Under the pieces are notes generated by a model. That model was not told the origin of the DNA, did not search any database, and worked only from the letters and a program-made list of their open reading frames with translations. From a virus: a stretch of DNA of 24,479 nt. Positions 2,951-24,479 of this stretch are shown here, piece by piece. Each line of letters starts with the position of its first letter. Within the stretch, counting starts at the first letter, position 1. The stretch lies in IMG/VR virus record IMGVR_UViG_3300021376_000342, positions 1 to 24,479 of that record, one strand, 5' to 3'. The position numbers and the translations under genes are program-made.

Positions 2951-5900
2951 TCAAACGAACTGAACTCCTGAATTTGTTACGATGAAGTCAATTGCTATAA
3001 ACTCAATTGCTCTTGTCGGAACAACGACGATTCTTCCATTAAGTCTGTTAAGATCGACATCTTCTTGTGTATTGTTAGTTTCATTCATGACGACTTGGTA
3101 TGCTTCAATACCAGCTTGTGCTTGAATTAATCCTAGTTGAAGTATCGAATCTGCAACGAACTTATTACGAACCGCTGGAGTGTTTTGTTCAAACACTATT
3201 CTATTTGCTATATTGATTATCAATCTCTTGACTTCTAAAAGTAATCTACGAACATTGACTCTATCAAGTGCAGACTTTCTTATCTGTAGCGTCTTCTGCC
3301 CATAAATTACGAATCCAAGTCTTGGGAATGTTGCAATTGGATTGATTCTTGCGTCGTATAGTCTATCTCTGTCAGAAACATTAAGTCTGACTTCAACGTT
3401 GTTGACGAAGTCAAGAGCTGCTCTGTTGAATCCTGCAGGAGCGAACCATGGATATGCAACCTTATCGTTAAATCCTAATGCTCCTAGTGCAGCAACTGAT
3501 GATGGAACTTTTACGTATCTGTTATTTGCTGTGTCATTTACGTAAACGTTAGGGAAATAAGTCGCAACATAATTGTTGTCGAAAGATCTAGCCTCAAATG
3601 TTGCAGCAGTGTTTTCGATGTTAATTTTTGTAGTTGAATCATCGTAGATACGATTATTGCTATCATCGTAGTTTGGAAGATCCATGACATACATTCCCAA
3701 TCCATAATCTCTTATTTTCTTTGATGTATAGTTCGTTATGTAGTCCTCTCGAATTCCTGGGAGTGCGAGTAGATTAACGTTAACCTGTAAAGGATCTGTC
3801 ATAACGTCTATTGCGGTGATGTATGAATTGACAGCGTTGTTATCAACACCAGCTCCTGCAAGATTAGTTAACATTCCAGGAGATACGAACGTAGATGATG
3901 CACCTCCCAAGGGTGTTTCAAAGGATGTAGCTTTATCATTCATCCTTGCTGCTGCAGGATCTAATATGTTCAATCCGTCAAATCCACCTTGCATAAAGGT
4001 AGTAAATTTAGCAAATGAAGAATATTTGTTGAACTCATACGGTTCGCCATTTGATAACAACGATGCAAACGTTATTCTTTCTCCTAAGAAAGGATCATTG
4101 ATTGTATACGTTGTTGGATCGACTTTTGCATTTCTAATGTATGCAGCTTCTTTCATGTGAGATCTAACAGTACCAGTAAGCTGTGTGAGCGTGCCTGCAG
4201 AAAATGCAACCTTGGATAATGAAAACTTGTTGTTATTAAAGTTATCTGCTCCAGAGCCGGTCACAAAAACGTCTAACTTTTTGATTCCACCAAACTTAGT
4301 ATAGCTTTCTAATAAAGAATTTTTTACTTCTGAAAGGTTAGAATTTAACGGAAGGTCATTTCTCTCAAACTTAACTCCCCAATAAAACTGAGGTGATGCA
4401 ACTTCTTGAGGTCCAGGATCTCCATCCCATGCAGGAGTTGTCATCGGGCCTTTTGTTACTTTGAACCTGAATGGAACAGGAGGAAGAATTGATTGAGAAA
4501 GAATTCCGACTGAATCAATAGAAAACACTCCAGTCAATCTGCTTGCAGCAGTTAAACCGTCAGACAAAGAATCATTTGTTTTTAACAGTTCAGGTCCTCT
4601 AAATCCGAATGGCAATGAAACAGCTGGAACTTTTTTGTCTTCTACATTTTGGGAAATTATTACCCTAACATATTTGGAAACGTTATCATACTTTCCGCTA
4701 GTTATTATTCTTCTTTCAGAAACTATATCTTGATCAAAGTCATAGGTTACTTTTCTATCTCCGATGACTTTTCCAATGTAGTTATCCGAATCTGGATCTA
4801 AAGAACAATTAACAAATTCTTCTAGAACGGCTGGATTTATATCTGTATCATTCCAGTCTCTTACTTGAACGTTAAACGTTCCATATTCATATGCTTCATT
4901 TTCAGAAACTTTTAGATTTGTTATTGAAATTTTGTATAAGCTATTTGCATATGCACCATCATCCAATGACTCGATTTGGAACAAATCATATTCAGTCGCT
5001 CCAAAAGGTTGTGATATAAAGTTAGAAGTTTTTGGTGATGTAAATCTTGTGTCAAATGCTCCGAAAGCTTGTCTAAATGTAGAAGAAGGTTCTCCTGAGA
5101 CATTGCTAGAGCTTAATGATCCGGACAAAATTGCAACATAATCATCATTTTCTACTGTTGCAATTTCATCGTCGACTGCAAAATCAGAGTAAAGCAAATG
5201 TTGATACTGAACGAATTTTTCAGGATCTCTGTTTAGAATTTTTGCAAAATAATCTCCGCTAGAGGGATCAAAAGATGCAGTATAAATTTTTATTCCAGGT
5301 ATCTGATCGTCGAACGCGAAAGCTGAACCTAGAGTTGAAGAAATGACTAACTTAAATTTGCCACTTTTTACTTGAGCAGCATCGTCGGCCGTAGTAGCTC
5401 CTACAAAAACCGGCTGGACGCTTTCATTTCCATCTAGTACCATCATTCTGGCGCCGGAAGCTAACATCACGACTCCTCTAACAAGACTAACGTTGTTAGT
5501 CTGCTCGCGCGAATCGTTGTCAGTAAACATAGGCATTCCATATGCTTCATTTGTTCGTAGCGTATGATCTGCAGTTATGAACTGAACGGCGCCGTTGTGA
5601 CGCCCTAAAGAATCATGAGAAGCTAAATTTCCTTCAAGCTTAAATCCAGCATTTTTTACTCTTCCTGTAAGAGAAGTTGAAGAAATATCAGTCGCAGTTC
5701 TATTAGCTCCTGCGCCTAATACTCTCATATAAGTCAACGCTGTTCTATTCTTTAAAAACTCATTAACGGCATAAGGACCAAATTTTTTAGGATCTAAATT
5801 ACCGAATAAGCTAACAAACTCATTGAAATTAGCGACAGTAACAGGAACAAATGCTGGTCCCTTATTCGACATTCCAATTACACCAGCTGGTACCCCTACC

Positions 5901-5977
5901 GGTCCTCCTCCTGGTGGCGCTTTTAATTCAATTTCTCTCTCAAAAAAATTAGGAGACCTAAAAACTTGCTCAGCCAT
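2951..5977 (-). CDS. gp18: Tail sheath protein, copy B
   Basis: A complete 1008-residue tail sheath protein. It shares with copy A the N-terminal block (VPAGVIG, NKGPAFVP, KKFGPYAV, YMRVLGAG), the central MQGGFDGLNILD motif and the C-terminal block (NPIATFPRLGFVIYGQKTLQ, SALDRVNVRRLL, then a helical region and VPTRAIEFIAIDFIV). The last part is the conserved sheath domain that packs on the tail tube. An AAGGAG site (5985-5990) lies 7 nt before ATG 5977. The motif AATACTTATAA (6012-6022) lies 34 nt upstream of the ATG. The gene follows the gp15 gene after a 68-bp gap with long T runs on the coding strand but no clear hairpin. It lies 57 bp before copy A, so the two probably arose by tandem duplication and then diverged strongly. 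Sheath function is well supported; whether both copies enter the virion is not visible. Confidence 0.9.
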   Translation of the reverse strand: MAEQVFRSPNFFEREIELKAPPGGGPVGVPAGVIGMSNKGPAFVPVTVANFNEFVSLFGNLDPKKFGPYAVNEFLKNRTALTYMRVLGAGANRTATDISSTSLTGRVKNAGFKLEGNLASHDSLGRHNGAVQFITADHTLRTNEAYGMPMFTDNDSREQTNNVSLVRGVVMLASGARMMVLDGNESVQPVFVGATTADDAAQVKSGKFKLVISSTLGSAFAFDDQIPGIKIYTASFDPSSGDYFAKILNRDPEKFVQYQHLLYSDFAVDDEIATVENDDYVAILSGSLSSSNVSGEPSSTFRQAFGAFDTRFTSPKTSNFISQPFGATEYDLFQIESLDDGAYANSLYKISITNLKVSENEAYEYGTFNVQVRDWNDTDINPAVLEEFVNCSLDPDSDNYIGKVIGDRKVTYDFDQDIVSERRIITSGKYDNVSKYVRVIISQNVEDKKVPAVSLPFGFRGPELLKTNDSLSDGLTAASRLTGVFSIDSVGILSQSILPPVPFRFKVTKGPMTTPAWDGDPGPQEVASPQFYWGVKFERNDLPLNSNLSEVKNSLLESYTKFGGIKKLDVFVTGSGADNFNNNKFSLSKVAFSAGTLTQLTGTVRSHMKEAAYIRNAKVDPTTYTINDPFLGERITFASLLSNGEPYEFNKYSSFAKFTTFMQGGFDGLNILDPAAARMNDKATSFETPLGGASSTFVSPGMLTNLAGAGVDNNAVNSYITAIDVMTDPLQVNVNLLALPGIREDYITNYTSKKIRDYGLGMYVMDLPNYDDSNNRIYDDSTTKINIENTAATFEARSFDNNYVATYFPNVYVNDTANNRYVKVPSSVAALGALGFNDKVAYPWFAPAGFNRAALDFVNNVEVRLNVSDRDRLYDARINPIATFPRLGFVIYGQKTLQIRKSALDRVNVRRLLLEVKRLIINIANRIVFEQNTPAVRNKFVADSILQLGLIQAQAGIEAYQVVMNETNNTQEDVDLNRLNGRIVVVPTRAIEFIAIDFIVTNSGVQFV

Positions 5978-6011: not shown

Positions 6012-6022
6012 TTATAAGTATT
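6012..6022 (-). promoter_or_regulatory. Candidate late-type promoter motif AATACTTATAA
   Basis: On the minus strand this 11-mer lies 34 nt upstream of sheath copy B. Nearly identical 11-mers precede sheath copy A and the 790-residue repetitive protein. Position and conservation suggest a -10-like late promoter element, comparable in role to the T4 TATAAATA box. This is inference from three copies only. Confidence 0.4.
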
Positions 6023-8054: not shown

Positions 8055-9242
8055 TCACCCTATGACTATTGACTTACCTAATGGCATTGGGATGTATCTT
8101 AATTGTTTTTGCATATTTTCTGCAGCTAAAGCATCTTGTTCTAACAACTTTGCATGAGTCAAATTTGCTAAAAATTCTTTCATTTGAGTTGTTAATTTGT
8201 CTTTATCTTCACGGCCTTGACCAACTAAAGCATCTCCGTTTAGTTGAAGTTCAGCATTTGGAATCGGTATTGTTGAGAACTTAGAACGAATTAATCCTAA
8301 CAATTCTTTACAAAGAGCAAGAGTGTATTGTCTGATCCATTGCTTTCCAGGCTGATTTACTGTTGCAAAGGGTATGTTGCCAAAAGGAATGTTGCTAGGT
8401 CCAGATATACCGTATATAGAATCATCTGCATATGCCGTTGGGTTTAAGGGGTCGTGCGGCGGCATTAGCTTTATGAATAACTTTCCTGTTTGTAAATCAG
8501 TAGAAGGAACAGGATAAATTCTTAAATTACTTCCTATTATTTCATAAGAATAATTTGAGCGCCTAACTCTAAATGCAGTTTCTAACATACCTCTTCTAAG
8601 AACGTCTTCGAAGACTGGAAGAACATAGAACACTGTTGAATTGACGTAAGATTCATAGTTAAAGTTCGTCGCAAGAAAGTTAGTTACGTTCGAAGCATTT
8701 AACAAAAACTGTTGTGACGCTAGGGGTTCCATATGAAATAACTCTACGACCTTTAACTTACCTTTAGATCCAGAAGCTAAAGTGTCATACACTACCTGAT
8801 CTTTATTCACTCCAGATGCAACCTTTACGTCTTTATAAATGTTGTAATCCTGTTGCCCAGAAACAAGGTCGATGTATCCTAACGTAGCATCATATGACCC
8901 ACCGACGTATGCTTCAGTTGCATACGGTTCTGCCATGCGTAGCAAGTATTCTACAGTTCTTTTTGCATATCTGTTTGTAAGGTCAGTCGACCCTGTAGGC
9001 ATGCCTAACACGTTAGTCAAGTCAGAGGTTATCTTCATTTCGTGTATTAAACGAGAATATTCGCAGCATGCCTCTTCAAAACATGCCCAAATTTCTTTTT
9101 TAGTTAACTCAACAGAAAGAACATCATCGCCTAATTTTCTTTTTACAAAAAGAACCATCGAATCAGCTTCAGTCTGAAACGATGCCTCTGCATCAAAAAA
9201 ACCAAACGGCGTTGGATTAATCGTTGTTGCGAATGTTGTCAT
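8055..9242 (-). CDS. gp13: Neck protein (T4 gp13 family)
   Basis: A 395-residue protein and the first gene of the leftward neck-tail unit. Near the N-terminus it has the helical pattern of gp13-like neck proteins: FVKRKLGDDVLSVELTKKEI, then FEEACCEYSRLI (about residues 32-65). A region like GYIDLVSGQQDYNIYKDV follows at about 125-142, then an aromatic-rich core and FIKLMPPHDPLNP. In this family the N-terminal pattern precedes a beta-rich domain bound to the portal and gp14. At 395 residues it is longer than T4 gp13 (309). The only upstream ribosome-site-like sequence is a GAGG about 13 nt before ATG 9242, so the start is less certain. Gene order 13-14-15-18 supports the call more than sequence alone. 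Confidence 0.68.
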   Translation of the reverse strand: MTTFATTINPTPFGFFDAEASFQTEADSMVLFVKRKLGDDVLSVELTKKEIWACFEEACCEYSRLIHEMKITSDLTNVLGMPTGSTDLTNRYAKRTVEYLLRMAEPYATEAYVGGSYDATLGYIDLVSGQQDYNIYKDVKVASGVNKDQVVYDTLASGSKGKLKVVELFHMEPLASQQFLLNASNVTNFLATNFNYESYVNSTVFYVLPVFEDVLRRGMLETAFRVRRSNYSYEIIGSNLRIYPVPSTDLQTGKLFIKLMPPHDPLNPTAYADDSIYGISGPSNIPFGNIPFATVNQPGKQWIRQYTLALCKELLGLIRSKFSTIPIPNAELQLNGDALVGQGREDKDKLTTQMKEFLANLTHAKLLEQDALAAENMQKQLRYIPMPLGKSIVIG

Positions 9243-9360: not shown

Positions 9361-9382
9361 TTATGACAATTTTATGACAATT
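9361..9382 (+). repeat. Perfect 11-bp tandem repeat (TTATGACAATT x2)
   Basis: Two exact adjacent copies, 9361-9371 and 9372-9382. Each contains ATGACA, one base from the -35 consensus TTGACA. The period of 11 bp puts both copies on the same DNA face, as expected for two bound activator molecules or two phased -35 boxes. Confidence 0.85.
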
Positions 9383-9401
9383 AGTATGTAACTATTTAGA
9401 T
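9374..9401 (+). promoter_or_regulatory. Candidate sigma70-like promoter for the 790-aa gene
   Basis: ATGACA (9374-9379; 5 of 6 to the -35 consensus) is followed after 16 nt by TTAGAT (9396-9401; 4 of 6 to the -10). A start near 9408 would give a leader of about 85 nt. The RATACTTATMA motif at 9419-9429 is a competing promoter for the same gene. Confidence 0.35.
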
Positions 9402-9418
9402 AGCTCAGTTCGTTAGCG

Positions 9419-9429
9419 AATACTTATCA
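9419..9429 (+). promoter_or_regulatory. Candidate late-type promoter motif AATACTTATCA
   Basis: Third copy of RATACTTATMA, here on the plus strand and oriented toward the repetitive virion protein. Its orientation follows that of the gene it precedes, which argues that it is a directional signal rather than chance. Confidence 0.42.
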
Positions 9430-9493
9430 TTGCGTAGAAAATTGAGCGTGGTGCTCGATTACTATGCAAAAAATAACTAAATTAGGTGGTAAA

Positions 9494-11866
9494 ATGGCTT
9501 TTACTAAAGTTCAGCAAGCACAAATTAGTGGTTCGCTTTCTTTCGACGATGGACTCTCTGCAGGTTCATTATTAGCTTCAAGATCTACTCTCGCAGGAGA
9601 TCTTGACGCACTTCGCTCTCAGATGAAGAGAGTCCTCGGCGTATCAAACTGGTACGACGAGCTCGATGGTTCACAAAACCTTTCTGCAATCTACGCTGCA
9701 GTTCATATGGACGGAACCAAGTCAAACTTCCAAGGCGCTATCGACGTCGCTGGAGTTGCTGATTTCGATTCAGCAGCATACTTCGCTAGCTCCGTCGGAA
9801 TCTCTGGTTCACTCGCGGTTGCTCAAGCAGCTTCATTCGCAAATGGAGCTTCTATCTCCGGTGCGGCGCTCGATGTCAATGCTGATTTAACTGCAAACAA
9901 GATCAGCATCGATGGAGATGCAGCAGGACGTCTCTACATCGTCGATGCTGATGGCTCCCTCAAGGACGAAGGAAACCTCATGTACAATGGATCGCAACTT
10001 GACGTCATTGGTAACTTTGATGTTTCTGGTTGGGCGGACATTGGTGGAGCTCTCGACGTAGGTGGAATCGCAACATTCGACTCAGCAATCAGCGGTTCTG
10101 CAGGCCTCGAAATCTCTGCCGGTGGTGCTTCAATCACAGGTGGAGCTGCAATCACAGGAGACCTTGCAGTCACCGAAGATGCAGCAATCATGGGCGACTT
10201 AAGCACGATGTCAGACCTTGCCGTTGCAGGAAACTCTGAACTCGTCGGTACACTCGCAGTGACCGGCAGCGTTCACATGTTAAGCTCTGCAAGAATCGAC
10301 GGTATCCTTGATGTAAACAACGTCGTTTCAGCATCCGCACTCAAGATTGATGGCGATGTTGCACAACGTCTCTACATCGTTAATGCTGACGGTTCCCTCA
10401 AGGATGAGTCCAAACTCACCTTCGACGGATCTGCATTATCAGTCGATGGTGGACTCTATGCAAGCGGACCAGCAGGGCTCTCTGGTTCTCTTCAAGTTGC
10501 AGGAATGGCTGGATTCGCTCAAGCCGTTTCTATGGCAAGCACACTCACCGTAACTGGTGCGACAACCCTCAACGGCGGATTGTCAATGGACTCCGGTGCA
10601 TTCTCAGTACAAGACGGAACAGGAAACGTTGCAACAGCCGGTTCATTGTCCGTCGCAGGAGGAGCACAACTCAATGGTGGATTAACAATGGATACAGACA
10701 AGTTCGTCGTTGCAAACGAAACTGGTAACACCTCCATTGCTGGTACACTCGGGGTTCTCGGCGCAGCACAACTCGGAAGCACACTCGGAGTAACAGGAGC
10801 AGTAACACTCTCCAGCACACTCTCTGCTGGTGCATCTACACTTTCATCACTCGGCGTTACAAACAACGCAACAGTCGGTGGAACGCTCGGCGTGACCGGA
10901 GCAGCTACATTCAATGCAGGTGCAACTATCAACGAAGCAGCTCTCGACGTCAACGCAAACTTAACTGCAAACAAGATCAGCATTGACGGCGACACAGCAC
11001 AACGCCTCTACATCGTTGATTCAGACGGTTCAATGAAGGACGAAGGAAACCTCATGTATGATGGATCTAAACTTGACATCATCGGTGGGCTCCGCGTTTC
11101 CGGTAACGCACAAGTTGATGGTGACCTTCTCGTCAAGGGCGCCTTCACCTACATCGAAACCACAAACATGAAGGTAAAGGATGCATTCATCTACCTTGCA
11201 ACAGGATCTAACGGATCAGTCGATTCCGGTTTCATCCTCAGCAAGGGTGCTGGTGCTTCTTACGACCTTGTGGTCGGACAAGACGGCGGAGCAGGAGAGC
11301 TCATCTTCGCACAAGTTGCACACAATGCAGCTGGTGATTCTCCAGCCGATCTTGCCGGAGCAGCCCTCGTTAAGGCTTGGATGTCTGGATCTTACTACGG
11401 CAGCGTGGAAGGAACAGAACTTGCTCATGTTGGAATCAGCGAAGGAAAGATGGAACTCAAGTCAGCAGCAGGAGTTGATCTCATGCTCGTTGCGCGTGGA
11501 GACGAATCCTTCAAATTAGCTGATGACGGCGACCAAGCACAATTTGAAGCACAATTCGGAGCGGGTGTGTCAATCGTTGATGCAATCATCTCTGCAGCTT
11601 CAGGTGGTAACTTCAAGCAAGATTCATTCGTGCCAGGAGTTGTTGCAGCTGACACAAACATCGCATTCTCTTCAGTCGGTACGCTCCGTGCCGGTGCAGT
11701 CGCTAGCGATGCCATCAAGAAGGTTGCAATGGATGTGTACCTCAACGGCGTTCGCCTTTCATACGGTGACGACTATATAATTTCTTCAACAACACAGCTT
11801 CAACTCAAGGTAGCTACAGTTGCTGAAGATAGAATCTTCGTCGCAATCCACAACGCAGCAGCCTGA
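9494..11866 (+). CDS. Large repetitive beta-rich virion protein (fibre/whisker/decoration type)
   Basis: I choose ATG 9494 (790 residues, MAFTKVQQAQISG...) because AGGTGG (9484-9489) lies just before it; ATG 9464 in the same frame has no convincing ribosome site. The chain consists almost wholly of short units such as GTLGVTGAATFN and GSLAVAQAASFANG, the style of trimeric beta-structured fibre shafts. Three longer units contain KISIDGD..RLYIVD.DGS.KDE. Near the C-terminus, IETTNMKVKDAFIYLATGS and SGFILSKGAG resemble modules in phage tail-fibre and structural proteins. The chain ends with VYLNGVRLSYGDDYIISS, a fold-like unit also seen in the protein at 12609-13013. Codons are mostly C-ending (GAC, AAC, ATC, CTC), unlike its AT-ending neighbours, which suggests very high expression. 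It has its own promoter region and terminator. Its position beside gp13 recalls T4 wac (fibritin), but no sequence link to wac is visible. Confidence 0.75.
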   Translation: MAFTKVQQAQISGSLSFDDGLSAGSLLASRSTLAGDLDALRSQMKRVLGVSNWYDELDGSQNLSAIYAAVHMDGTKSNFQGAIDVAGVADFDSAAYFASSVGISGSLAVAQAASFANGASISGAALDVNADLTANKISIDGDAAGRLYIVDADGSLKDEGNLMYNGSQLDVIGNFDVSGWADIGGALDVGGIATFDSAISGSAGLEISAGGASITGGAAITGDLAVTEDAAIMGDLSTMSDLAVAGNSELVGTLAVTGSVHMLSSARIDGILDVNNVVSASALKIDGDVAQRLYIVNADGSLKDESKLTFDGSALSVDGGLYASGPAGLSGSLQVAGMAGFAQAVSMASTLTVTGATTLNGGLSMDSGAFSVQDGTGNVATAGSLSVAGGAQLNGGLTMDTDKFVVANETGNTSIAGTLGVLGAAQLGSTLGVTGAVTLSSTLSAGASTLSSLGVTNNATVGGTLGVTGAATFNAGATINEAALDVNANLTANKISIDGDTAQRLYIVDSDGSMKDEGNLMYDGSKLDIIGGLRVSGNAQVDGDLLVKGAFTYIETTNMKVKDAFIYLATGSNGSVDSGFILSKGAGASYDLVVGQDGGAGELIFAQVAHNAAGDSPADLAGAALVKAWMSGSYYGSVEGTELAHVGISEGKMELKSAAGVDLMLVARGDESFKLADDGDQAQFEAQFGAGVSIVDAIISAASGGNFKQDSFVPGVVAADTNIAFSSVGTLRAGAVASDAIKKVAMDVYLNGVRLSYGDDYIISSTTQLQLKVATVAEDRIFVAIHNAAA
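9866..11086 (+). repeat. Three internal coding repeats in the 790-aa protein
   Basis: The unit at 9866-10012 (147 nt, beginning ALDVNADLTANKISIDGD) recurs at 10940-11086 with the same length and only a few changes. A shorter, more diverged copy is at 10337-10450. Between them lie many 10-20 residue beta units. The near-identical first and last copies suggest recent duplication or gene conversion within the shaft, so shaft length may vary between relatives. Confidence 0.8.
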
Positions 11867-11911
11867 TATTAGGAAACTAATACAGTCGCAGATCTAGACT
11901 AACAGATCAGG

Positions 11912-11940
11912 GGCCGGAAGGAAACTTCCGGCCTTTTTTT
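11912..11940 (+). terminator. Strong intrinsic terminator after the 790-aa gene
   Basis: A 9-bp GC-rich stem, GGCCGGAAG / CTTCCGGCC, is closed by a GAAA tetraloop (11912-11933) and followed by seven T, then a second T run after one A. This is a textbook Rho-independent terminator 45 nt after the stop. It acts only rightward, since no T run follows on the other strand. Confidence 0.95.
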
Positions 11941-11994
11941 ATTTTTTTACTAAAAGTATCTTGTAAATAATTTATTAATACTTTAGAGGATTTC

Positions 11995-12600
11995 ATGAAC
12001 GAAGAAAAATCTTTTGATCTAAAAACATTGGCATCAAGAATTCAAGTTATTTCAGAAATGGTTGAAGCAAAAACTTCACAATTAAGCACTTTGTCAGAAA
12101 ATTTAAAAAGGGTAGACGGATACGTCTTGGGGTCAAAAGAATCTATAGAAAAGGTAGAAAAATACCTAAAACAACAAAAGAATGAATTAAAAGAATTGAC
12201 CGCACAAGGAAAAATGTCAAAAGAAATTTCTTCATTTTTAGAAAACGTTTTAAACGCAATTCTATCATTTATAAAAAGCATACCTTTAGATGCTGAAAGA
12301 TTATTCTTTTCTAAACAAGGTGAGACTGCATTCTTGAAACAAGACATTGAAAAACTAACGTTTTTAAAGAAGAATCATGAATCTGCAGTAAAAAATGCAG
12401 AAAAAGAAGAACCAAAAAAAGAAACTAAAGAAATCAAAGAAGAAGAACCTCAAAGAGTTAGACCAGATAAAAATCCTCACACAAAGATAGGTCAAGCAGC
12501 TATTGACATAGCTGAACGTAAAAGAAAAGCAAAACAATCTTTAGAAACAGCTAAAGAAAATTCTTCAAAAAAAAGAGGAAGAAAACCAAAAGCTATTTGA
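11995..12600 (+). CDS. Coiled-coil, lysine-rich protein with C-terminal basic tail
   Basis: A 201-residue protein I do not recognise. An AGAGGA ribosome site (11985-11990) lies 4 nt before the ATG. Residues about 5-75 are heptad-like (ISEMVEAKTSQLSTLSENLK and so on), followed by a short hydrophobic helix (VLNAILSFIKSIPLD). Then comes a strongly charged E/K stretch and a tail ending KKRGRKPKAI. The RGRKP core resembles an AT-hook, which binds the minor groove of AT-rich DNA. Codon use is A/T-ending like the rest of the phage, unlike the gene just upstream, and the terminator at 11912-11940 separates the two. The gene converges with the one at 12609, with only 8 nt between. A DNA-binding or scaffold-like role is possible but not shown. 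Confidence 0.75.
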   Translation: MNEEKSFDLKTLASRIQVISEMVEAKTSQLSTLSENLKRVDGYVLGSKESIEKVEKYLKQQKNELKELTAQGKMSKEISSFLENVLNAILSFIKSIPLDAERLFFSKQGETAFLKQDIEKLTFLKKNHESAVKNAEKEEPKKETKEIKEEEPQRVRPDKNPHTKIGQAAIDIAERKRKAKQSLETAKENSSKKRGRKPKAI

Positions 12601-12608
12601 ATGATTAA

Positions 12609-13013
12609 TTAAACAGCCTTTGCATAGGTAACAAGTATCTTCGAATCCTTACGAGGAGGAGAAGAAAATGTTATTGTCTTACCTACTAGGTTGTAGTCTG
12701 CGGAAGAATCATGACGTTCCTGCAAAACTCCGTTGATGAAAATTAGCACCTTACCATTCAACTCAGGAGTGTATTGAAGAATAAACGTTAAATTTGAACC
12801 GTCAACTGTACCAGAAGGAATTTCATTCCAGACAATGGCATCTGAATTAGAGTTAATAGAATTAACAATGTTTTTTATTAATACTACTTCTTTCATAGCG
12901 TTATTAACGTTGTTCATTTCTTCCTCTGTAGCTAGAGCTCGATATATCGGTCTAGGCCTATAGTATGAATAGGCTTTCCTAGTCCTAGAAATATCTCTGT
13001 TGATTATTGCCAT
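12609..13013 (-). CDS. Small virion-type protein with FINGVLQ beta module
   Basis: 134 residues. The N-terminus is basic and tyrosine-rich (RTRKAYSYYRPRPIYRA), followed by a helix. The C-terminal half (about residues 66-132) has the pattern PSGTVDGSNLTFIL, VLIFINGVLQ, DYNLVGKTITFSSPP and ILVTYA. This module recurs in phage tail and fibre proteins and resembles the C-terminus of the 790-residue protein nearby (VYLNGVRLSYGDDYIISS). I infer a structural part, perhaps an attachment or trimerisation unit. No ribosome site is seen before ATG 13013; instead the start codon touches a hairpin (13013-13040). The gene is last in the leftward small-gene unit that includes the lysin. Confidence 0.72.
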   Translation of the reverse strand: MAIINRDISRTRKAYSYYRPRPIYRALATEEEMNNVNNAMKEVVLIKNIVNSINSNSDAIVWNEIPSGTVDGSNLTFILQYTPELNGKVLIFINGVLQERHDSSADYNLVGKTITFSSPPRKDSKILVTYAKAV

Positions 13014-15564: not shown

Positions 15565-18042
15565 TTACTTGATCAATCCTGCCAACTTTATCCAACGAAC
15601 ATCCTCAACAATCAAAGAAGAATTATTTTTCTTTGAGATTTCGTTCAAGACGATTTTTAACGTTGATTCGTTGATCGCTCCAGCCTTAAACAAAGCAACA
15701 GCAGCATCGCGTTGCTTGATGCTTCGAGGCGCCCAATCTTTTCCTTTAGTAAAATCATTAAGATTTATACCGCTTACGTCTTTTCCGTAAGCACTGGAAA
15801 GTGTATCATCCAATTTTCCTGCTTGCTTAAGCTTTTCCACCATTCCAGGAATTTCATCAACAGCTGCTTTGTCTTTAACTAATTTAGACGCAGCATCTAT
15901 TACCTTGTTTAGATCAATGGCTTTTTCTTGTTTTTCATCAGGTAATGCTACGTTATCATTGTTGATCAAATGCTGTAAAAAGTCTTCTGCAAACTTTTCT
16001 GGTGTCATTCCTTTCGGAAGAAGCTTTTCTTGCCCTCTAACCGCTGCAACGACATCATTGAATAAAGGATGATCTTTTGGGTTTCCTTTATAAGAATCTT
16101 TTTCAACTCTTTTTGCAGTAATGTCAATATCTGCTGCTGTTTCTAGAAGGACATCTTGTAGCCTTCTTCTAGAATCTGCAAGAAGAGCTTTCTTCTTCAT
16201 AAGAGCATTTAACGCGGCTACAACTGGTTGTGATGCAAACTTTTTGTCTTGTCCCTTAATACCCATTGAGTCCAAGAACTTGTTGGCAACTCCTGAAAGA
16301 TATGATCCGCTAGCATTAACTGTCGTCATTTTCTTTACAGGCTTTCCAGCTTCTTTTTCAGGTTCTCCCCCTCCAGGACCGGGAGACGGTTCAGGGGATG
16401 GTCCTGGTCCTGCTTCTCCCTCATCTTCACCTCTATCACGATCATCATCTTCTTCAGGAGGAGGTTCAGGAGGTGGAACCGGTAATGTTTCTTCCTCCTT
16501 TTGTTCTATTTCTCCTACTTTGTCCATAAGGTCATCAAGGAATGCTGCTCTGCTATCTTTCTTGCTCTTTTCTCTGAGGCGACTAATCGCAAACCCAGAC
16601 AACAAGCCTCCTGCTCCAACCGCGCCAGCAACCGCAGCGGCTGTAGCTAGGCCTGCAGAACCAAGAACACCTGCGCCAACCATTCTCGTTATAGTCGTTT
16701 TTACAACCTTGTTAACCAATTGTTTTGCGACAATTCCTCCGATTGATATAGGTCGTCCGGCGGCGCCGCCAAAACGTTCCATTGCTCCACCTACAGAACC
16801 AGGCATTTTGAATGCTTCTTGAACGTCCATGCCACCGGCCATTCTTTTTAAAATGTAATCTACATTTCGACCTTTATCTGTCGCCATGTTAACAGAATTA
16901 AAAAATGTAGTTAATCCTTTCTTTTGATCTCCGTTTCCGTAATTTTTAGCAACGAAATCTAGGAAATCGCTTGAGTTATGACCAGGATCTCCTGTAAGGA
17001 CTATATCTCCTTTTGCTTTTAATTTATCAAAAAATTCAGGAACAAATTTTGTTGCAAATCTTTCTTTAATTTCAATAGGACCAACAACTTTATCTACTTC
17101 TGTAGTAATAGTTTGAACGTCATCAGTCACAATAGCTTGTGCTGTTGAACTAAAAATTTCTGGGTGTGTTGCCAAAATTCCGGCTGCAACAGCCAATCCA
17201 GCTCCACCTAAAACCTTTAAGACGGTGGGCAATACTTTGCTGTTTAACCCTTTTATGGATTCAGAAGAACCTTTCTTCGTTCCTAAAGCTTCTTCTTCCT
17301 TTTTCTCTTCTTCTGCCTCTAGAATAAGCATAGCTCCGGCAAGAGACATATTTTCCATGAAATGTTTGTAATGATCTCCTATCTTCTGATCTAAAAGGTA
17401 GGAAATCCACTTCTTCACAGATTTATACATTTCTGCACGAACACCAGGATCTTCATGCGTTTTAATGAATGCCTCTGCATCGCCTATGGCTTTCATCGTT
17501 TGAGCCTTAAACTCTTCAACGTCTCTATTGTTTGGATAATCTTTAGATGTTGCTGCCTTAAGAATATTGAGGAGCTCTTTTTGATCTTGTTCTAATTTTG
17601 CGTATTCTGCTTGTTGCGCTTTTGATTTTTTGCCCAATCCGAACAAAGATCCACCTTTTTCAAGGCTTCGATTACCAGCAACTGCCCTGCTTACGGACTT
17701 TAATCCTTTTCCAATTGCAGAAGCAACTTTTCCAGCTCCAGATTTAATTTTGTCCCAAATTCCTTCATTAGTTAATGAGTAATTACCTTTTTCATCTTCT
17801 AGCTTAATAAACTGTTCCCATCTTCGAATTCTAGGAGTTGATGAAGCAGCGCTTTCAAAAAGAAAAGATTCTGAATACACAAACTTACTCCACACTTCAT
17901 TGATCTGATCAATTTCGTTAGTTGAAAGATGGTTGCTCCATTTCCTTTTAGAAATCAAATTTCTAAAAGGGATAGAAGACTTATCTAGATCATAGATCTC
18001 GTTAACTAATGAATGTGTGTGATAAATGTCCATATTTTTCAT
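15565..18042 (-). CDS. Large multi-domain protein with two hydrophobic segments; putative internal/ejection virion protein
   Basis: 825 residues, no family recognised. In order: a polar N-terminal part with RRWEQFIKLEDE (about 73-84); a Gly/Ala/Lys amphipathic stretch (about 97-125); helices; hydrophobic segment 1 (about 270-291, LPTVLKVLGGAGLAVAAGIL); a soluble domain; a long Gly/Ala segment 2 (about 455-486); a Pro/Gly/acidic linker (about 520-570, PVPPPEPPP, DDDRDRGEDEGE); then a helical C-terminal domain ending LIVEDVRWIKLAGLIK. Two membrane-compatible segments without a signal peptide suit a protein carried in the head and inserted into the membrane on infection, but this is inference. 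AGG lies 5 nt before ATG 18042. The gene follows the kinase-like gene by 29 nt and ends at an intrinsic terminator. Confidence 0.75.
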   Translation of the reverse strand: MKNMDIYHTHSLVNEIYDLDKSSIPFRNLISKRKWSNHLSTNEIDQINEVWSKFVYSESFLFESAASSTPRIRRWEQFIKLEDEKGNYSLTNEGIWDKIKSGAGKVASAIGKGLKSVSRAVAGNRSLEKGGSLFGLGKKSKAQQAEYAKLEQDQKELLNILKAATSKDYPNNRDVEEFKAQTMKAIGDAEAFIKTHEDPGVRAEMYKSVKKWISYLLDQKIGDHYKHFMENMSLAGAMLILEAEEEKKEEEALGTKKGSSESIKGLNSKVLPTVLKVLGGAGLAVAAGILATHPEIFSSTAQAIVTDDVQTITTEVDKVVGPIEIKERFATKFVPEFFDKLKAKGDIVLTGDPGHNSSDFLDFVAKNYGNGDQKKGLTTFFNSVNMATDKGRNVDYILKRMAGGMDVQEAFKMPGSVGGAMERFGGAAGRPISIGGIVAKQLVNKVVKTTITRMVGAGVLGSAGLATAAAVAGAVGAGGLLSGFAISRLREKSKKDSRAAFLDDLMDKVGEIEQKEEETLPVPPPEPPPEEDDDRDRGEDEGEAGPGPSPEPSPGPGGGEPEKEAGKPVKKMTTVNASGSYLSGVANKFLDSMGIKGQDKKFASQPVVAALNALMKKKALLADSRRRLQDVLLETAADIDITAKRVEKDSYKGNPKDHPLFNDVVAAVRGQEKLLPKGMTPEKFAEDFLQHLINNDNVALPDEKQEKAIDLNKVIDAASKLVKDKAAVDEIPGMVEKLKQAGKLDDTLSSAYGKDVSGINLNDFTKGKDWAPRSIKQRDAAVALFKAGAINESTLKIVLNEISKKNNSSLIVEDVRWIKLAGLIK

Positions 18043-22998: not shown

Positions 22999-23325
22999 TT
23001 ATTGTTTCCTACGTCTTAATATCAAAGGATTTTCTTTTACCTTCCAGAATTCCTTCTCGAATGGTGGATCTTCTCCGGCACGGAACCACATGAGTCTTCT
23101 TCCTCCCGTAGAAGAATACACACCGATAATCGTTATCTCACCAGCATGAACTAAATCATGACATGAATGGCAAACAACCGCTAGATTGTGATTATCATTG
23201 GTGCATCTAGAGTCACATCTAGGAATGATGTGATGATAGTTTATCGCTGCAGGTCTATCATAACCACAAATCTCGCAACGTTCTTTTGCTAATTTAGGCT
23301 GACCATGTGTTCTACGCTGCTTCAC
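22999..23325 (-). CDS. HNH endonuclease
   Basis: 108 residues. Zinc-ribbon HNH layout: CEICGY (17-22), HHIIPRCDS (31-39), NLAVVCHSCHDLVHAGE, giving the Cys pairs CxxC/CxxC, catalytic His-His, Asn and His. The basic C-terminus (RRRKQ) may bind DNA. It is typical of free-standing phage HNH enzymes, which can act in homing or in DNA packaging. Its distance from any visible terminase gene and its position beside a foreign-looking cassette favour homing. The start is GTG 23325, 19 nt after the previous stop, with no clear ribosome site. Confidence 0.88.
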   Translation of the reverse strand: MKQRRTHGQPKLAKERCEICGYDRPAAINYHHIIPRCDSRCTNDNHNLAVVCHSCHDLVHAGEITIIGVYSSTGGRRLMWFRAGEDPPFEKEFWKVKENPLILRRRKQ

Positions 23326-23773: not shown

Positions 23774-24479
23774 TCACGATAAATCCATAAAGTACTTATG
23801 CGATCCACACCCATATATCCTAGAAACTTTTGCTTCAAACGTGATCTGACGCTCTGTCTTTCCGCCTTTTGCCTTAAACTTAAATCTATTGTAACGAAGT
23901 TGATTATCAGTATACCAATAATCTATAGCTGTTGATCCTAGAAAAGAAAACCCTACAGACTTATATCCGTTTCCTTCACCAATGCGACGATCAACATAAG
24001 TTATAATTCCACGATACCCATTTTGGGCGCACCATTCTTTAGCTCTCTTCATCAATTTAGATAAACCTCCAGGAACGGAGGTCAATTGAGCAGTGCTGTA
24101 TCGAGCAATCTCTAGATAACCTTCATACTTCTTGCCGTTCCTTGGTGTACGAAGCGACAGGGCAGCGACGACGGTACCACTCCTGTCTCTCAATCCCCAC
24201 GTTACCTTGGACGGGACGTATCCTGCGATGTGTGTAGAATCGAAGAAAGACCTTTGTTCTTGTGTGCCTAATTCGACGACCTTTGTGGACCAGGTCTTAC
24301 ACCTGTGACGATCCATACCGAGGCGGTGGCGGATCATCGACTCGCATATCGTTCGCTTGTCTCTCCATTCATCCTCAAATATCTGCAGCAACTTTATGCC
24401 GTTCTTCGCAGCAAGGACGGATTTTTCTAGATGCTTGTTCTTATCAAAAACCCCTTGTTTAGAACCTTCGCTGTGCCAG
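23774..24479 (-). CDS. Vsr-like phage nuclease (5' end off the window)
   Basis: The frame is open to the right edge (234 residues visible). It begins within the motif WHSEGSKQGVFDKNKHLEKS and continues GIKLLQIFEDEW, the signature of a family of phage proteins with a very-short-patch-repair-like endonuclease fold. Next come a region like STHIAGYVPSKVTWGLRDRS and a long C-terminal domain (LEIARYSTAQLTSVPGGLSK, ITYVDRRIGEGNGYKSVGF, IDYWYTDNQLRYNRFKFK) always found with it. Such genes are free-standing and scattered in large phages and are thought to be homing-type nucleases. A TTG at 24391 is not the true start, since coding sequence runs past it. The catalytic N-terminus, including any zinc ribbon, lies outside the window. 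Confidence 0.82.
   Translation of the reverse strand, partial: WHSEGSKQGVFDKNKHLEKSVLAAKNGIKLLQIFEDEWRDKRTICESMIRHRLGMDRHRCKTWSTKVVELGTQEQRSFFDSTHIAGYVPSKVTWGLRDRSGTVVAALSLRTPRNGKKYEGYLEIARYSTAQLTSVPGGLSKLMKRAKEWCAQNGYRGIITYVDRRIGEGNGYKSVGFSFLGSTAIDYWYTDNQLRYNRFKFKAKGGKTERQITFEAKVSRIYGCGSHKYFMDLS

Follow-up and report, generated by a model that had tools for sequence, protein, structure and literature searches.

Here we describe a gene of an uncultured T4-like myovirus that is, on balance, probably a long-resident late gene encoding a very abundant fibrous virion protein, expressed from a single-gene mRNA at the position occupied by wac in T4. The window analysed is a complete IMG/VR record of 24,479 bp. 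The open reading frame list, PHROG profiles and relatives define the gene at 9494-11866 on the plus strand, encoding a repetitive, cysteine-free, fibre-like protein of 790 aa. The frame could open at 9464; the start at 9494 is favoured by a Shine-Dalgarno-like AGGTGG (9484-9489, plus strand), kept in the alignment of relatives, and by conservation of the start itself. Codon use, taken together with the flanking control signals and gene architecture, suggests production near the level of the major capsid protein (MCP), which would make a recent borrowing of the gene unlikely.

A protein scan provided 18 relatives with identities from 88% down to 34%. The closest (L002, 88% identical) lies inside a 204,651-bp record, G001, and a further four (L003, L004, L005 and L006) are ~50% identical to the window protein. 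As the 18 include near copies, e.g. L003/L004, L007/L013 and L014/L015, counts among them are not counts of independent events.

Codon use and the MCP

Within the window, C-ending codons make up 0.67 of the two-fold NNY codons of the gene, compared with 0.18-0.45 in the 14 other genes. The gene differs from its neighbours in the leucine codon CTC (0.60 vs 0.02), as well as in ATC (0.80 vs 0.18), TTC (0.88 vs 0.24) and AAG (0.83 vs 0.35), with AAC and TAC completing the set of raised codons. An earlier note made from the sequence had described the gene as preferring C-ending codons, unlike its neighbours; this bias is real, but it is codon-specific rather than simply C-ending, as other families are still led by GCA (0.57), ACA (0.57), CCA (1.0), GAA (0.83) and CAA (0.88), CTG is at 0, and the four-fold families remain A/T-ending. 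Such a codon-specific preference has the shape expected of a translation optimum and not of GC pressure. The same note had reasoned that its reading would fall if all late genes of the phage shared the bias; sought in the sheath, gp15, gp13-like and endolysin genes of the window, the bias was absent.

To place the gene within larger genomes, we defined an index from the codon use of the window gene and applied it to ORFs of at least 100 aa. Among the 176 such ORFs of G001 (mean 0.234, sd 0.092) the two highest scores belong to the MCP (0.74) and the homologue of the gene (0.65), which is thus second behind the MCP alone. In a further record, G003, the homologue ranks 7th of 205 (0.61), preceded by the MCP and by five ORFs at 186-211 kb, a GC-rich stretch. 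This part of G003 (~186-211 kb, L049-L050) carries 12 tRNA genes along with numerous high-index ORFs and is possibly foreign or chimeric. When the MCP codon table serves as the reference, the homologue ranks 2nd among the 176 ORFs of G001 and 3rd among the 205 of G003, and it scores 21.5 sd (G001) and 17.2 sd (G003) above simulations of the same protein written in genome-mean codons. Codon frequencies of the window gene correlate at 0.91 with the G001 MCP, compared with 0.40 for the rest of G001. Across the eight records in which both genes are readable, scores for the MCP and the fibre-like gene are.74/.65,.74/.61,.74/.61,.76/.63,.85/.68,.73/.74,.75/.75 and.86/.89. In G001, in G003 and across these eight records, codon use resembles that of the MCP and departs from that of the genome at large, and this tracking of the MCP lends support to the very abundant product that had been proposed for the gene.

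The bias extends to all 18 loci, at each of which the gene scores above the mean of its neighbours (locus GC 0.30-0.53). The margin narrows in L019 (0.18 vs 0.10), in which another ORF scores as high as the gene, and one other ORF outscores it in five loci (L002, L003, L004, L006 and L008), the stretch concerned in L002 including the MCP end. In G001 the tail tube (0.37) and three sheath paralogues (0.21-0.33) fall much below the homologue. The PrkA kinase, RNR, DNA ligase and DnaE of G001 are also fairly high on the index, so that copy number cannot be read from the score, and these enzymes count against a purely virion reading of it. G001 carries its PrkA kinase and a DnaE (DNA polymerase III alpha) split in two ORFs with intein splicing domains (L036:588-2525, L033:10312-15206).

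That phage genes for head and tail can be selected for codons preferred by the host is known (PMC2266997). Selection for translational efficiency would have shaped the codons of the gene studied here and of the MCP alike, possibly through adaptation to those of the host. In cyanophage S-RIM2, the protein at the equivalent position showed no distinct bias among 10 genes compared, and the bias is therefore a property of the present lineage. The best match of the G001 PrkA (72%) is on a contig, L052 (PBIO01000025.1), in a Halobacteriovorax MAG. This contig is itself phage-like, with several genes in common with G001 and G003, and its presence in the MAG may reflect either faulty binning or a clue to the host. 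We did not retain Halobacteriovorax as the host, given the phage-like contig and an EF-Tu of the MAG that uses CTT, not CTC, for leucine; freshwater actinobacteria are a conceivable host. Among EF-Tu codons from further genomes of two phyla (24 readable EF-Tu from 60 loci), the best correlation with the window gene was 0.72.

Putative transcription signals flanking the gene

The gene runs on the strand opposite to all larger genes of the window except the next one (11995-12600, plus strand), which encodes a lysine-rich protein that by eye is probably a coiled coil. Its earlier description as isolated, against nearly everything around it, therefore holds for orientation but not entirely for isolation. 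Upstream, it forms a divergent pair with a gp13-like gene. The structured leader between the two and the strong GAAA-loop terminator, both previously proposed to frame the gene, are each supported.

Within the leader, the sequence AATACTTAT at 9419-9427 (plus strand) matches AATAYTTAT, which we infer to be a late promoter element. The window holds two matches, the second being AATACTTAT at 6014-6022 (minus strand), found by motif scan upstream of the sheath gene; they occur before these two genes only, and a pair of matches does not in itself exceed chance, since at least two arise in 25 of 100 shuffles. More informative are G001 and G003, in both of which the motif precedes the fibre-like gene (-74/-75), the first sheath gene (-46) and the tail tube gene (-40/-41), compared with an expected frequency of 0.0017 per 100-nt window. 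Among 9-mers allowing one pyrimidine wobble, the motif alone recurs in all six of these windows, and none of 300 random sextets of windows had any such common 9-mer. Since the motif was picked after seeing the leader of the gene, the independent tests are those of sheath and tube. The upstream regions of the MCP in G001 and G003 both lack it. L017 has a further copy before an ORF of 390 aa that takes the place of the gp13-like gene. The T4 late promoter TATAAATA was considered and rejected, showing no upstream strand preference (sense/antisense 2/2 in G001 and 3/3 in G003).

Three bases past the motif begins a two-tier RNA hairpin (9430-9469, plus strand), recovered on refolding. The folding z score is -3.3 for the leader over 258 nt and -4.8 for the 50 nt that follow the promoter-like motif. 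Hairpins at the very 5' end are a feature of known mRNA stabilisers, and the predicted transcription start near 9433 would place this one at or near the very end of the message. Its covariation was assessed in six hand-aligned leaders, MAFFT having misplaced the 3' arm of L003/L006 by two columns: of 12 pairs, three have changed on both sides from one standard pair to another, and a standard pair is lacking in 2 of 72 cells. Outside this count are L007, L009 and L013, whose hairpin is longer, and L005, whose leader matches that of L003 there; L004 was not folded. Beyond the close group, z scores range from -3.0 to -4.8 for L014, L015, L017 and L018, and from -0.8 to -1.4, which is not convincing, for L008, L011, L016 and L019. 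The idea that the gene has its own control signals consequently needs qualification, as the promoter-like motif is common to sheath and tube, and the 5' hairpin is noted, from incidental observation, only here.

At the other end of the gene, an intrinsic terminator stem capped by a GAAA loop lies at 11909-11936 (plus strand) and leads into a T run, and the surrounding region (11864-11960) folds with a z score of -5.3. Terminator-like hairpins follow 16 of the 17 genes scanned in the window and 16 relatives, the exception being L018; 12 of these 16 have a GAAA loop, and the terminator is kept across relatives while its stem sequence changes. We propose that a late promoter at AATAYTTAT starts a single-gene mRNA that would have a stable hairpin close to its very beginning and would end at the strong intrinsic terminator, an architecture that should yield a stable, heavily translated message.

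Also in the divergent promoter region is a tandem pair, TTATGACAA-NN-TTATGACAA (9361-9380, plus strand), a putative regulator site with an 11-bp period. One copy is found in each of the window, G001 and G003; the pair is present in 10 of the 18 leaders, and an exact scan recovered it in 35 viral contig stretches, mostly outside the 18 relatives. Its spacing resembles that of a PhoB box. A further leader stretch, TAGATAGCTCAGTTCGTTAGCGAA (9397-9420, plus strand), resembles a tRNA D-arm and is kept in L002. We discarded the notion of a tRNA remnant, as ARAGORN returned none there and the stretch is missing in L003; the window as a whole gave no tRNA by ARAGORN and no Rfam family match.

Architecture, position and likely role of the protein

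The 790-aa protein can be divided into several regions. A conserved N-terminal domain (residues 1-75; 9494-9718), which is probably a docking part, is conserved above the level of the shaft in most relatives; it matches phrog_36281, to which PHROG assigns no function, and the first 100 aa had no match among 50,697 phage records. The shaft (residues 76-534; 9719-11095) appears from DNA repeats, a weak structural model and relatives to be made of beta-repeats and contains three RLYIV-type insert modules. It is followed by a module, GDLLVKG..TYIET..KDAFIYLATGS (residues 535-610; 11096-11323), identified by hhalign and alignment and better kept than the shaft in most relatives, and by a C-terminal beta domain (residues 706-790; 11609-11863; fold matches at Z 6-8) of which two types are swapped among relatives. 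All 19 sequences counted are free of cysteine, and the repeats are rich in Gly, Ala, Ser and Asp. The DNA repeats are real but diverged; for example, one of 208 nt occurs twice at 75% identity and one of 91 nt occurs three times at 75-80%. Complete relatives span 551-1023 aa and carry the RLYIV insert in 0-5 copies, and L003 has near-tandem 99-nt units. The shaft thus changes length among relatives, as had been suspected from its repeats, and would do so by gain and loss of modules.

AlphaFold models the whole protein at low confidence (pLDDT 55.9), and the C-terminal 257 residues reach 61.6, which leaves the shaft fold and a trimeric state as guesses, while most blocks of the last ~85 residues reach a confidence of 75-91. 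Foldseek found no match at E 0.001. Comparison of the shaft with beta-helix proteins gave a best Z of 15.3 (4wa0), which says little for a low-confidence repeat model. Against PDB chains the protein matched none at E 1 by sequence and none at E 0.1 by profile, T4 fibritin and the fibre of Anabaena phage A-1(L) among those unmatched; these two were not in the VIA fold-comparison lists, so that their absence there excludes nothing. The C-terminal domain had no Pfam match, a Pfam Arr-ms match was dismissed on judgement as repeat-driven, and no similarity was found to the Flavobacterium immuto fibre-like protein.

One link to known proteins is phrog_697, a structural protein profile of the head-and-packaging class, matched by the window protein at E 1e-14 and by 13 of 15 alignment members, although part of this similarity may come from repeats. 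Its cyanophage members include LIS111010_095 of S-RIM2 (1912 aa), and hhalign gave 98.2% over the shaft and a GDL.VNG..T module. Full-length homology was not found, alignment being confined to profile columns 289-578 with no common N-terminal domain. The S-RIM2 protein directly precedes the neck genes, and the gene studied here also adjoins a gp13-like gene, but inverted; the S-RIM2 protein is furthermore more than twice as long, co-directional with the neck genes and without distinct codon bias. Cyanophage virion proteomics is reported in PMC3037559.

The divergent neighbour, a head-tail adaptor Ad2 or gp13-like neck gene (8055-9242, minus strand), is identified by phrog_211 and synteny, and belongs with the tail sheath, a gp15-like sheath stabiliser and a 223-aa protein among the minus-strand genes. 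It is divergent from and directly adjoins the fibre-like gene in 10 of the 18 relatives; in L017 it lies ~3 to 4 kb away, and at the other seven loci it was not detected. In T4, wac lies next to gp13. Like T4 fibritin (wac, the neck whiskers), the gene therefore sits beside a gp13-like gene and has a fibrous product. Unlike fibritin, it is on the opposite strand and has MCP-like codon use; its weak model suggests, at low confidence, a beta-repeat with short strands and few helices where fibritin has a long segmented coiled coil and C-terminal foldon. A neck-attached fibre is also described (PMC10966104) for the freshwater myophage A-1(L), as a trimeric assembly of gp82/gp81/gp80 that is multi-copy through the ~14 gp81 repeats of each fibre. 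That fibre is a bead chain of three proteins, as opposed to one long repetitive protein here.

The C-terminal 85 residues resemble the N-terminal docking domain of T7 gp17 and comparable appendage domains, among them those of TSP4, cyanophage A4 and the DT57C/T5 neck (7boz, Z 6.9, 67 aligned, 2.8 A; 7rfv, Z 7.2, 64, 2.1 A; 9k09_U, Z 7.9, 76, 2.7 A; 8hqo_P, Z 7.1, 69, 2.2 A). With Z below 8, and with the domain C-terminal here but N-terminal in T7 gp17, the likeness to a docking domain is suggestive only. This fold, similar also to N4 tail proteins, is one reason to ask whether the product is instead a receptor-binding tail fibre or adhesin present in ordinary virion numbers, its codon bias arising from its length, from its repeats or from pressure for accurate translation. 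Fast evolution would suit such a role, as the neighbours are far better kept than the gene itself (in L003, 91% for the gp13-like protein and 90% for the sheath, compared with 50%), as would the two C-terminal types and the matches of 5 of 15 alignment members to phrog_4549, a tail fiber protein. Yet long proteins of the virion, among them the sheath (1008 aa) and an 825-aa ORF, lack the bias, the docking-like domain sits at the C-terminus, and nothing recognisable as a baseplate or long-tail-fibre gene adjoins the gene in the window; we consider this reading unlikely, though not negligible.

An abundant late product outside the virion, e.g. a released fibre acting as a decoy or in lysate aggregation, has only the expression argument in common with an abundant virion fibre and is helped by the high-scoring non-virion enzymes of G001, but the structural annotation of phrog_697, the wac-like position and a promoter-like motif identical to that of sheath and tube make it improbable. 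The earlier suggestion of recent gain from a GC-richer genome, with composition a leftover of origin, is the least credible, for although the gene is an island of GC 0.50 in ~0.37 surroundings (0.30-0.41 in 13 of the 14 other genes, 0.45 in one 88-codon ORF), runs on the opposite strand and diverges much faster than its neighbours, the MCP has the same codon table, four-fold families still end in A/T, and the bias recurs in 18 of 18 relatives and the neck-gene location in 10.

Under the favoured reading of an abundant virion fibre, the product would probably be a cysteine-free homotrimer with an N-terminal docking domain, a beta-repeat shaft and an exchangeable C-terminal beta domain, most likely projecting from the neck or capsid given the wac position of its gene. 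This would give a compact, testable model, comprising promoter motif, 5' hairpin and terminator, for the selective high output of a single fibre gene in a T4-like phage, with a hint that a fibre encoded at the wac position can rise to be a major component of the virion. It also suggests a finder, based on sequence only, of super-abundant virion proteins other than the MCP in uncultured phages, namely genes that share the MCP codon optimum while their neighbours do not. A bolder scenario, which we regard as improbable, is that a lineage of large T4-like phages bears such long fibres of variable length over the capsid as well as the neck, by the hundred. They would be produced at near-MCP level by a transcription unit of their own, with a protective hairpin at the start of its mRNA, and this unit would be divergently coupled to the neck/tail operon through the one 11-bp tandem activator site. 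If so, and given the likeness of that site to a PhoB box, virion hairiness might respond to phosphate state.

Several minor observations concern the surrounding genes. A 134-aa neighbour (12609-13013, minus strand) with a weak tail-fibre PHROG match ends in INGV..DY..TITF, which by eye resembles the C-terminus of the fibre-like protein; comparison of this INGV..DY module with that protein gave no profile support (hhalign probability 0.64%). The 825-aa ORF (15565-18042, minus strand) has no PHROG match and is missing between the flanking genes in G001, indicating a lineage-specific insertion. The MCP lies past the window end, and near its expected place are a partial homing endonuclease (23774-24391, minus strand) and a small HNH-like gene (22999-23325, minus strand). 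Finally, the window has at least two tandem tail-sheath genes (2-2893 and 2951-5977, minus strand), and G001 has three (102281-111697) of 1016, 1016 and 1039 aa, with paralogues at 27-33% identity to the window sheath.
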